NCBI GenBank assembly: GCA_015067935.1
Contig: SVLL01000013.1
Location: 1 to 37,574, forward strand
Origin: Oscillospiraceae bacterium
GTDB lineage: Bacteria > Bacillota > Clostridia > Oscillospirales > Oscillospiraceae
Length of the DNA stretch: 37,574 nt
Direction: 5' to 3'
This document shows, one piece after another, positions 12,232 through 15,288 of this stretch (its first letter is position 1; every line of letters starts with the position of its first letter). A program made the position numbers and the translations under genes. The notes beneath the pieces are model-generated. The model made no database searches. It saw nothing but the letters and a program-made list of their open reading frames with translations, and was not told where the DNA came from.

Positions 12232-12320
12232 GGAGAGATGTCCGAGCGGTTTAAGGAGCTAGTCTTGAAAACTAGTGATGGGGCAACCCACCGTGGGTTC
12301 GAATCCCACTCTCTCCGCCA
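12232..12320 (+). tRNA. tRNA-Ser (anticodon UGA), CCA encoded
   Basis: Acceptor GGAGAGA/TCTCTCC, anticodon stem-loop CTAGT-CTTGAAA-ACTAG, variable arm, GGTTCGAATCC T-arm, terminal GCCA. Confidence 0.95.
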
Positions 12321-12324
12321 TAAC

Positions 12325-12370
12325 GGACACCAATTGGATGACAGTATCATCACGATTGGTGTCCAATTTT
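12325..12370 (+). terminator. Terminator-like hairpin after tRNA-Ser
   Basis: GGACACCAAT...ATTGGTGTCC with nested GATGA/TCATC, followed by AATTTT. Confidence 0.6.
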
Positions 12371-12394
12371 GTAATGCGGATATGGGGAATACCT

Positions 12395-13126
12395 ATGACA
12401 AGATTCTTTGTAACACCGGAGGATATGCAGCCCAATTTTCTGGTACTCACCGGGGAAAATGCCCAGCACGCCAAGGTCCTGCGACTGAAAAACGGGGAAG
12501 AGGTGCTGGTTTGTGACGGACAGGGCCACGAGTGCCTGTGTGCCGTCAGCGATGTGAGTGAGGGCCAGTTCAGCCTTGTGGTTAAGGACCGCAGAGCATC
12601 CGAAACAGAGGCTCCTGTACGGGTCAGCGTCTATATGGCCTTTCCCAAAGGTGACAAGCTGGAGCATGTGATCCAGAAAGCCACGGAGCTTGGTGCGTTT
12701 GAAATCGTGGCGTTTCCGTCAAGCCGCTGTGTATCGAAGCCTGACGAAAAGAGCTTAAAGAAAAAGCTGGAGCGTTGGCAGAAGATCGCGGCCTCTGCAG
12801 CAGAGCAATCCGGACGGGGCAGGATCCCGGAGGTCCTTGTTCTTGGCAGCTATAAAGAGGCTCTGACAAGAGCGGCCCAAGCGGATAAGGCCCTGATGTT
12901 CTATGAAAATGAGCAGGCAACAACCCTTAAAATGGCAATGGAACAGGGGAGTGCGGAAACTATCAGTCTGCTTACCGGTCCTGAGGGCGGTCTGGAAGAA
13001 AAAGAGGTTGCGCAGGCCCGGGAAATGGGTCTGCAGGTGTGCACACTCGGCAAACGGATTCTCAGATGTGAGACCGCTCCGCTGTGCGCTCTGTCAGCCG
13101 TAATGTATGCCTGCGGCGAATTTTGA
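12395..13126 (+). CDS. rsmE: 16S rRNA (uracil1498-N3)-methyltransferase
   Basis: MTRFFV...NAQHAKVLRLKNGEEVLVCDGQG, LLTGPEGGLEEKEV, LGKRILRCETAPLCALSAVMY. Confidence 0.93.
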   Translation: MTRFFVTPEDMQPNFLVLTGENAQHAKVLRLKNGEEVLVCDGQGHECLCAVSDVSEGQFSLVVKDRRASETEAPVRVSVYMAFPKGDKLEHVIQKATELGAFEIVAFPSSRCVSKPDEKSLKKKLERWQKIAASAAEQSGRGRIPEVLVLGSYKEALTRAAQADKALMFYENEQATTLKMAMEQGSAETISLLTGPEGGLEEKEVAQAREMGLQVCTLGKRILRCETAPLCALSAVMYACGEF

Positions 13127-13145: not shown

Positions 13146-13174
13146 TTGCATATATTGGTAATGTGTGATATAAT
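13146..13174 (+). promoter_or_regulatory. Sigma-A type promoter of the riboswitch leader
   Basis: TTGCAT - 17 nt - TATAAT. Confidence 0.8.
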
Positions 13175-13211
13175 CCTAATCTAAACCAAGGAAGGTTTTG
13201 GTCAATATCAC

Positions 13212-13284
13212 AAATATTGGTATATGCTTATAATAGGGATAAGCGTTTCTACGAACCACCGTAAATGGTTGACTACCGGTTTTG
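13212..13284 (+). ncRNA. Purine (guanine-class) riboswitch aptamer
   Basis: P1 ATTGGTA/TACCGGT, P2 GCTTAT/ATAAGC with L2 AATAGGG, J2/3 TTTCTAC, P3 AACCA/TGGTT with L3 CCGTAAA, J3/1 GACTA (C74 equivalent). Confidence 0.88.
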
Positions 13285-13310
13285 TCAGAACTGGTAGTCG
13301 GCCTTTTTTT
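13271..13310 (+). terminator. Riboswitch expression platform: intrinsic terminator overlapping J3/1 and P1 3' strand
   Basis: GACTACCGGTT-TTGTCAG-AACTGGTAGTC then CGGCCTTTTTTT; competes with aptamer. Confidence 0.88.
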
Positions 13311-13351: not shown

Positions 13352-13594
13352 ATGAATCACATTTTATTAGAAATTTTTGGCTATGTGGGAATGGCCCTTG
13401 TGCTGGTGTCCATGATGATGACATCGGTCAAATGGTTGCGCCTCTTTAATATGACCGGCGCAATCATCTGTGCCATTTACGGTATTCTTACCAACACATG
13501 GCCTACGGCACTTCTGAATATGGGCTTGCTGATTATTCAGGCAGTGCAGCTGATCCGGCTGTACCGGATGGAAAAGAAGGAGGTAACAAAATGA
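13352..13594 (+). CDS. Small YgjV-like membrane protein
   Basis: 80 aa hydrophobic: FGYVGMALVLVSMMMTSVKWLRLFNMTGAIICAIYGILTNTWPTALLNMGLLIIQAVQLIRLY. Confidence 0.7.
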   Translation: MNHILLEIFGYVGMALVLVSMMMTSVKWLRLFNMTGAIICAIYGILTNTWPTALLNMGLLIIQAVQLIRLYRMEKKEVTK

Positions 13595-15288
13595 TCTTAA
13601 ATATTGATGGCCGTACAATCGAGCCCCGTCCCGATCAATCCCTTTTGGAGCTGATCCGTGAGCTGGGGATGGATACAGATAAGCTATCCACCCGCCCGCT
13701 GGCAGCCAAAATCGCCGGTGAGGTATTCAATCTGAACTATGTTCCGGTCCGTCAGAAGGACGGTTCTGACCGTTCGTCCATTCGCCGCGCAATGGCGGCA
13801 TCCGGCGGTCACGTGCGTCTGCTGCGCTACGGTGACGATACCGGACGGGAGGTGTATACCCGCACCGCCCAATTTGTGACCTTCCTTGCACTGCATCGTC
13901 TGTACCCGCAGGCAAAAGCGAAGATGAACTGCACCGTTGGCTCCGGTCTGTTCATTGCTGTATATGACTGCAAGGAGCTTTCCATCCGTGCCCTGAAGGC
14001 GGAAATTGCCAAGCTGGTGGAGATGGACATCCCGTTGATTCGTCAGAGGCTGACCACGCAGGAGGCTATTGACCGCTATGCAGCTTCCGGTCAGGATGAC
14101 AAGGCAAAGCTGCTGTCCTGGCGTAAGGAACCCCACTTTGATGAATACATATTTGAGGATTTCGGTGATTACTACTATGGTGAGCTTGCACCATCCACTG
14201 GCTATATGAAGGTTTGGGATATTCAGCAGAAGGATGGCGGCTTTATGTTCATCTATCCCGACGATCAGGACCCCGATCAGGTTGCCGATTACAAGGAAAG
14301 CCCCCATTTCTTTGATATGTTCTCTGAGGGTGAAAAATGGGGCTACCTGATGGATTGTCAGACCGTTGCCGATTTGAATGAGCTTGTGGATTCCGGTCGG
14401 ATCCGTGAGCTGATCCGCGTCAACGAGGCACTGCACGAAAAGAATTATTCCAAGGTCGCCGATATGGTGTGCCAGCGGGGTGCAAAGGCGGTAATGCTGG
14501 CAGGCCCCAGCTCCTCCGGCAAGACCACCTCCGCCAACCGTCTGTCCACCCAACTGCGTGTTCACGGCAAAAAGCCTATTCTGATGAGTCTGGACGATTA
14601 CTATCTGGACCGAGATAAGATCCTGCCCGGACCTGACGGCAAGGTGGATTTGGAGCATATCAACACTATCGATACGGAGTTGTTCGGTCAGCATCTTGCT
14701 GCTCTGCTTGACGGGGAAGAGGTGGAGATTCCCACCTTCAACTTTAAACTTGGCAAGCGCGTCTGGAACGGCCACAAGATGAAAATGGATAAGGACACCG
14801 TTTTCGTGATTGAGGGTCTGCACGCCCTGAATCCGGTTTTGCTGCCTGCAAACCTGGATAAGCATCTGGTGTTCCGTCTCTATGTCAGCCCCTTGCTGCC
14901 TCTGAACCTGGATGATCATAACCGGATTCCCACCAGCTATCTGCGTCTGCTGCGGCGAATCGTGCGGGACTTTGAAAGTCGCGGCACCAGTGTCCAGCGA
15001 ACCATCGGTATGTGGGACAGCGTCCGTGCCGGTGAACGCCGGTGGATTTTCCCCTTCCAAGAGAATGCGGATGTGATTTTCAACAGCTCCACCCTCTATG
15101 AGCTGGCGGTGCTGAAAAAGCATATTTTCCCACTCCTGACGGCTGTTGAGCCGGAAGATCCTGCTTATGATGAGGTTCGTTCCATCGTTAAGGTGCTGAA
15201 CTTTGTGCAGGAGGCAGATGTGGATGATGAAATTCCGCCCACATCCCTGGTGCGCGAGTTTATCGGTGGCAATACTTTCTACCGTTAA
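13591..15288 (+). CDS. TGS/ThrRS-like N-terminus fused to uridine kinase/phosphoribulokinase-type nucleoside kinase
   Basis: P-loop AGPSSSGKTTSANRL, SLDDYYLDRD, IEGLHALNP; N-terminus resembles TGS plus ThrRS second additional domain; ATGA overlap and AAGGAGG RBS. Confidence 0.88.
   Translation: MILNIDGRTIEPRPDQSLLELIRELGMDTDKLSTRPLAAKIAGEVFNLNYVPVRQKDGSDRSSIRRAMAASGGHVRLLRYGDDTGREVYTRTAQFVTFLALHRLYPQAKAKMNCTVGSGLFIAVYDCKELSIRALKAEIAKLVEMDIPLIRQRLTTQEAIDRYAASGQDDKAKLLSWRKEPHFDEYIFEDFGDYYYGELAPSTGYMKVWDIQQKDGGFMFIYPDDQDPDQVADYKESPHFFDMFSEGEKWGYLMDCQTVADLNELVDSGRIRELIRVNEALHEKNYSKVADMVCQRGAKAVMLAGPSSSGKTTSANRLSTQLRVHGKKPILMSLDDYYLDRDKILPGPDGKVDLEHINTIDTELFGQHLAALLDGEEVEIPTFNFKLGKRVWNGHKMKMDKDTVFVIEGLHALNPVLLPANLDKHLVFRLYVSPLLPLNLDDHNRIPTSYLRLLRRIVRDFESRGTSVQRTIGMWDSVRAGERRWIFPFQENADVIFNSSTLYELAVLKKHIFPLLTAVEPEDPAYDEVRSIVKVLNFVQEADVDDEIPPTSLVREFIGGNTFYR

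Follow-up and report, generated by a model that had tools for sequence, protein, structure and literature searches.

A guanine-I riboswitch aptamer with a 6-bp P2 and a G54·G72 junction mismatch in a predicted transcriptional ON switch of Oscillospiraceae

INTRODUCTION

Numbered as in xpt, the pocket of guanine-I aptamers comprises U22, A23, G46, U47, U51, A52, C53 and C74 (PMC3764141, PMC9295807); the A23-G46-C53 triple is universally conserved, and loops L2 and L3 kiss through U34, G37 and G38 on one side, and C60, C61 and A65 on the other (PMC3764141). Variant classes depart from this arrangement in characteristic ways. A cytosine at position 51 (58 in 2′-dG-I) selects nucleosides in 2′-dG-I and 2′-dG-II (PMC8872408); 2′-dG-III departs from guanine-I in all three joining regions, xanthine-II combines G51 with insertions in J2/3 and J3/1, guanine-II has a one-nucleotide J2/3 insertion together with most other xanthine-II-like changes, and an 8-oxoguanine variant is also mentioned as a class (PMC9295807).

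The closest described expression platform is that of the pbuE ON switch, in which a strand exchange running through P1, J3/1 and P3 gives rise to the terminator; weak P1 helices impaired termination in that system (PMC7707468). The xpt aptamer drove a pbuE-type platform only when given a P3 mismatch and changes in the P2 tune box, i.e. the two junction-proximal P2 pairs and the last J1/2 nucleotide, and natural variation of the tune box alters binding kinetics and affinity (PMC7707468).

Here, we describe a purine aptamer in a 37,574-nucleotide stretch of Oscillospiraceae DNA (the window). We consider it probable that this aptamer belongs to guanine-I and acts by switching transcription on, and that its short stems and junction mismatch leave the sensed ligand unchanged; these features may tune the switching instead.

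RESULTS AND DISCUSSION

Identity and anatomy of the aptamer

An Infernal covariance search of the window gave an RF00167 match at 13198-13295 on the forward strand, scoring 54.7 bits (E 7.9e-7) against a gathering cutoff of 37 bits; it is the only RF00167 aptamer found in the source genome, which is 79% complete. The leader is laid out as follows (xpt numbering).

13166..13174, + strand: likely extended -10 promoter element (TGATATAAT), from reading of the sequence
13216-13280, + strand: RF00167 aptamer core, from the covariance match
13216..13222, + strand: P1 5′ strand, AUUGGUA, from the covariance match and an alignment of 12 sequences
13223..13225, + strand: J1/2, i.e. U22, A23 and U24, from the covariance match
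13226..13244, + strand: P2 hairpin of 6 bp, GCUUAU/AUAAGC, lacking the 25-45 pair (strands 13226-13231/13239-13244; L2, AAUAGGG, 13232-13238), from the covariance match and compensatory changes in relatives
13245..13252, + strand: J2/3, i.e. G46 followed by UUUCUAC, the canonical guanine-I pocket (U51 at 13250, C53 at 13252)
13253..13271, + strand: P3 hairpin of 5 bp closed by a G54·G72 mismatch (13253/13271), with pairs A55-U71 to A59-U67 at 13254-13258/13266-13270 and L3, CCGUAAA, at 13259-13265
13272-13273, + strand: J3/1, i.e. A73 and C74, the latter (13273) being the specificity base
13274-13280, + strand: P1 3′ strand

TATAAT-like elements lie at the equivalent place in relatives; the putative promoter is absent from the list returned by a consensus scan, and the candidate -35 element (TTGCAT, 13146-13151) is a poor match.

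Stem lengths and the placement of the gaps

The initial annotation had read both P2 and P3 as one base pair short at the junction, by loss of the 25-45 pair and by a G/G at 54/72, and had proposed that the two shortenings are matched. The U22-G46 span is 23 nt in the window and 25 nt in xpt, and the 54-72 span is 19 nt in both, as against 21 nt in the Rfam/Clostridia consensus. The G54·G72 mismatch is real. P3 has lost no nucleotides when set against xpt, but falls one pair below the Rfam/Clostridia consensus, with the mismatch in addition. The Infernal alignment to RF00167 scores 54/72 as a non-pair and has one pair missing from each of P2 and P3, although in either stem it sets the gap at the pair that closes the loop. 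As the P2 span is simply two bases shorter than that of xpt, the register of this gap is arbitrary; the 25-45 placement is favoured over the loop-closing one because the A23-G46-C53 triple is conserved and the G preceding UUUCUAC is near-invariant, in agreement with the loss of that pair proposed initially. A U25·G45 wobble, with both A24 and G46 lost, can be drawn on paper, but is disfavoured by the near-invariant G before UNUCUAC.

Matched shortening is also borne out by the family. Our family/genus set comprised 96 distinct aptamers, 47 of them with a canonical L3; among the latter, 23 have U22-G46 and 54-72 spans of 23 and 19 nt (P2/P3 of 6/6), and 17 have spans of 25 and 21 nt (7/7). A 6-bp P2 is, therefore, ordinary in Oscillospiraceae, and the lengths of P2 and P3 shift together when L3 is canonical, presumably keeping the L2-L3 contact in register; the xpt aptamer itself is 7/6, so the matched-length rule is not absolute.

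The same family and genus contain a second aptamer type (L043, L044, L058, L066, L092-L094, L097 and L103), in which L2 and L3 are far from consensus (GGATNNATGGC / GCC...) and the pocket is kept; here, the kissing contact has presumably been rearranged. Tandem purine aptamers, ~90-165 nt apart and upstream of one gene, occur at L037, L041, L051 and L067. Purine aptamers also precede FAD-dependent proteins (PF21688, FAD-depend_C) at L055 and L109, and the reading frames downstream of L072 and L088 start similarly (MNYDVIIIG and MNKDIVIIG, respectively).

The G54·G72 mismatch is rare and clade-restricted

At phylum level, a pattern search of 250 genomes, which demanded the loop CCGTAAA letter for letter and stems of nearly equal length, returned 95 aptamer-like matches; this count was used in place of a separate phylum sample, which was skewed to high scores. 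C54-G72 is present in 93 of these matches, the other two being a U-A and a single G·G, which is that of the window itself; P3 has 7 bp in 86 matches and 6 bp in three. An exact scan of 85,462 species for G54/G72 with canonical J2/3, L3 and J3/1 found ten loci, all in Oscillospiraceae or uncultured Clostridia MAGs, several of them from ruminant caecum. A further G54·G72 aptamer, with a different L3, occurs in another genus of the family (L038), and 54/72 varies in the family (G-U, A-U, U-A and G-C). The initial annotation was to be dropped if many xpt-associated riboswitches proved to have identical junctions, and this came true by half: the 6-bp P2 is widespread in the family, whereas the mismatch is not.

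In an alignment of 12 clade members, ten of which had been retrieved with the G·G pattern itself, positions 54 and 72 are G·G in 11 and A·G in one. Given this pre-selection, the fair count is that of the operon loci found without requiring G·G, where seven of eight are G·G, the eighth is A·G and none is Watson-Crick. Only four P1 pairs, GGUA (13219-13222) with UACC, are kept in all 12 sequences, the outer pairs being mostly broken; P2 and P3 both show compensatory changes, eight sequences have A-U at 55-71, two have G-C and two A·C, and position 24 may be A, U or G in relatives.

The aptamer most likely still senses guanine

All eight pocket residues are present, in keeping with the original reading of a canonical, guanine-class core. 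The kissing residues are likewise found in L2 and L3, and the contact itself is predicted. Three stems surround the junction; what departs from the consensus is the C54-G72 pair and the 7-bp P2, exact stem length being a consensus trait that does not define guanine-I. As regards the other classes, the U74 of adenine aptamers is replaced by C (13273), and position 51 is U (13250) rather than the C of 2′-dG-I and 2′-dG-II. Neither J2/3 nor J3/1 shows the departures of 2′-dG-III, U51 and the lack of insertions are at odds with xanthine-II, and J2/3, GUUUCUAC, is the same as in guanine-I rather than guanine-II. Because the pocket is standard, the aptamer is most likely still guanine-sensing and of the guanine-I class; U51, C74 and the canonical J2/3 thus uphold the earlier preference for a guanine-like ligand over a Mesoplasma-type 2′-dG.

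Gene contexts in the family point the same way. In another genus, L013, L019 and L034 are 6/6 purine aptamers of the adenine type (U74), and the gene immediately downstream is one for adenine deaminase at L013 and L034. At L030, L042 and L053, a 6/6 aptamer with C74 (and U73) lies before guanine deaminase instead, as does the G54·G72 6/6 aptamer of L038. Hence, 6/6 stems and the mismatch coexist with ordinary guanine gene contexts. A change of ligand class was rejected on these contexts together with the pocket residues.

It had also been suggested that the altered junction might tolerate a modified purine or nucleoside. A shift to guanosine, 2′-dG or another modified purine would match an operon encoding a SemiSWEET/YgjV-like protein and a uridine-kinase-fold protein (see below); moreover, there is variation among the P2 junction bases close to the pocket, and known variant classes on the same scaffold do change ligand (PMC9295807). 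We nonetheless regard such a shift as unlikely: U51 is kept where nucleoside selection in 2′-dG-I and 2′-dG-II goes with C51 (PMC8872408), J2/3 and J3/1 are free of insertions or substitutions, 6/6 aptamers otherwise follow the position-74 code, and the mismatched aptamer of L038 precedes guanine deaminase. The tolerance suggested earlier is, therefore, not sustained. In its narrower form, the clade-specific junction (25-45 missing, U24 and G54·G72) would loosen the pocket such that a guanine nucleoside is sensed with U51 in place; we think this quite improbable, albeit that it would represent a nucleoside-sensing variant that owes its specificity to the geometry of the stems and not to mutations in the pocket, turning on a nucleoside transporter and a nucleoside kinase.

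An overlapping terminator predicts an ON switch

Terminator detection and the alignment place an intrinsic terminator immediately downstream of, and overlapping, the aptamer.

13267..13310, + strand: intrinsic terminator, with a 17-bp stem (13267-13303) followed by U7 (13304-13310)

Its 5′ arm is built from J3/1 and the 3′ strands of P3 and P1, and the predicted fold of the free leader is the one with the terminator (-40.6 kcal/mol, z -3.7). Because the 5′ arm uses these bases, terminator and bound aptamer are mutually exclusive, and ligand-ON control is therefore predicted, i.e. a transcriptional ON switch with a pbuE-like layout. The overlap with P3, J3/1 and P1 recurs in nearly all G·G relatives. 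Moreover, the terminator pair 13270/13300 covaries (U-A in six sequences, C-G in four and U-G in two): in the four relatives where U71 has become C, the terminator partner is always G, whereas the P3 partner follows in only two, such that the terminator pair is kept even with the competing P3 pair 55-71 lost.

Guanine-I switches commonly lower expression when guanine is plentiful (PMC9295807), and one might suppose an OFF switch of the xpt type here, with the overlapping hairpin being secondary. This seems highly improbable, as the 13267-13303 stem is the sole terminator detected near the aptamer and, since it uses bases of the P1 and P3 3′ strands, cannot coexist with the bound aptamer; a separate antiterminator was not seen, and the layout is common to the relatives.

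An ON switch of this kind would operate as follows. During synthesis of the leader, P2 and P3 would fold and dock via L2 and L3. Guanine, when bound, would form a Watson-Crick pair with C74, with further contacts from U51, U47 and U22, and the junction triples would lock P1 such that the 3′ arm of the terminator is unable to invade P1, J3/1 and the lower part of P3; transcription would then run on through the genes for the small membrane protein and the kinase. In the ligand-free leader, the 17-bp terminator would form and transcription would stop.

Stem geometry, tuning and drift

The short P1, the 6-bp P2 and G54·G72 of the clade would lower the barrier to invasion by the terminator, and would probably tune affinity. 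A changed affinity, which had been raised in the initial annotation, is plausible because the P2 tune box takes in both U24 and the site of the absent 25-45 pair; taken together, the weak P1, short P2 and mispaired base of P3 plausibly tune both affinity and strand exchange. The short P1 need not favour invasion, given that a weakened P1 impaired termination in pbuE.

Across the canonical-L3 loci, 6/6 geometry shows a suggestive tie to the ON layout. Under strict rules, an ON-type terminator was called at 13 of 26 six-bp loci and 1 of 49 seven-bp loci; under relaxed rules, the figures were 18 of 26 and 8 of 49 (p 8e-6 overall, 0.003 within the family; statistics that ignore kinship), and 8 of 14 six-bp loci when the G·G clade was set aside. 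As the calls are automated, erring both ways (L100 in the strict and relaxed counts, L013 in the relaxed count), and kinship is uncorrected, this association is only a lead. That terminator invasion needs a 54·72 mismatch was considered and rejected: L055, L013 and L019 are 6/6 ON switches whose terminators invade P3 with C54-G72 retained.

Alternatively, the switch may be guanine-sensing as proposed, with the short stems and G·G being products of neutral drift that affect neither affinity nor switching. This would replace only the tuning part of our reading, and is a possibility that we take seriously while holding it to be the less probable: 6/6 stems are common in the family, where 54/72 also varies, and G72 may be held by its terminator partner, leaving only G54 to be explained; on the other hand, each of the eight operon loci that were found independently has kept a purine-purine 54·72, while P2 has undergone compensatory changes.

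The target operon

Two reading frames follow the terminator and overlap by ATGA.

13352..13594, + strand: ORF 1, 80 aa, three predicted helices, YgjV-like and weakly SWEET/SemiSWEET-like
13591..15288, + strand: ORF 2, 565 aa, uridine kinase/PRK domain at the C-terminus

ORF 1 would appear to be a small membrane protein: it matches the second half of YgjV (PF10688; E 5e-4, below the family cutoff), and its structure model has three helices (mean pLDDT 71), the best structural matches being SWEET/SemiSWEET transporters, all of them statistically weak (best E 0.6). ORF 2 is probably nucleoside-kinase-like, and its N-terminal part gives a weak threonyl-tRNA-synthetase-like match. The kinase gene is present in 18 of 18 good genus genomes; the YgjV-like gene occurs in 9 of 61 genus genomes, nearly always behind this riboswitch, and the aptamer lies upstream of 11 of 13 distinct small-protein genes. 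In one genome (G331; L107/L111) the riboswitch directly precedes the kinase. The kinase was rejected as the gene that is always controlled, since most genus genomes carry it with no riboswitch.

Guanine-ON control of the operon would make sense if its products export surplus purine or dispose of it, as with the deaminase, xanthine dehydrogenase and MATE genes that follow other aptamers with a 6-bp P2. To our knowledge, nucleoside kinases are not usual targets of guanine riboswitches, which counts against the guanine ON switch proposed here.

Elsewhere, the gene behind a 6-bp-P2 purine aptamer encodes a MATE efflux protein that continues into a cytidylate-kinase-like domain (L062:702-2699), paralleling the window operon in having a transporter and a nucleotide-kinase fold under one riboswitch. 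At L158 and L159, the YgjV-like small protein carries an additional C-terminal domain of ~120 aa that looks GNAT-like by eye. Upstream in the window, a tRNA (12232-12317) overlaps the listed start of an rsmE-like ORF (12275-13126), the true start of which probably lies 3′ of the tRNA.

Comparison with known systems

The window aptamer is like xpt guanine-I (RF00167) in the pocket residues of J1/2, J2/3 and J3/1, the L2/L3 kissing residues and C74, and unlike it in the 6-bp P2, in G54·G72 for C54-G72, in having four invariant P1 pairs in the clade, and in its predicted ON platform and new target operon; these departures fall in part within the tune box region. With the pbuE adenine riboswitch it shares the ON layout, the strand-exchange terminator and a weakened P3, although the weakening in pbuE is an A-A mismatch near L3, whereas that of the window lies at the junction end; it differs further in having C74 rather than U74 and in the genes downstream. 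It is built on the same three-way-junction scaffold as the guanine-II, xanthine-II and 2′-dG variants, several of which are predicted ON switches (PMC9295807, PMC8872408), but has neither their insertions in J2/3 and J3/1 nor their alterations of position 51. The pocket is standard; the unusual part is the target genes, which are apparently switched on, and the predicted guanine regulon gains an uncharacterised membrane protein and a kinase. Overall, the aptamer represents a natural guanine-I subtype in which a purine-purine combination replaces the pair found in 93 of 95 phylum matches, and it would provide a parallel from nature to the finding, made with engineered switches, that mismatches in P3 and the P2 tune box govern ON switching.
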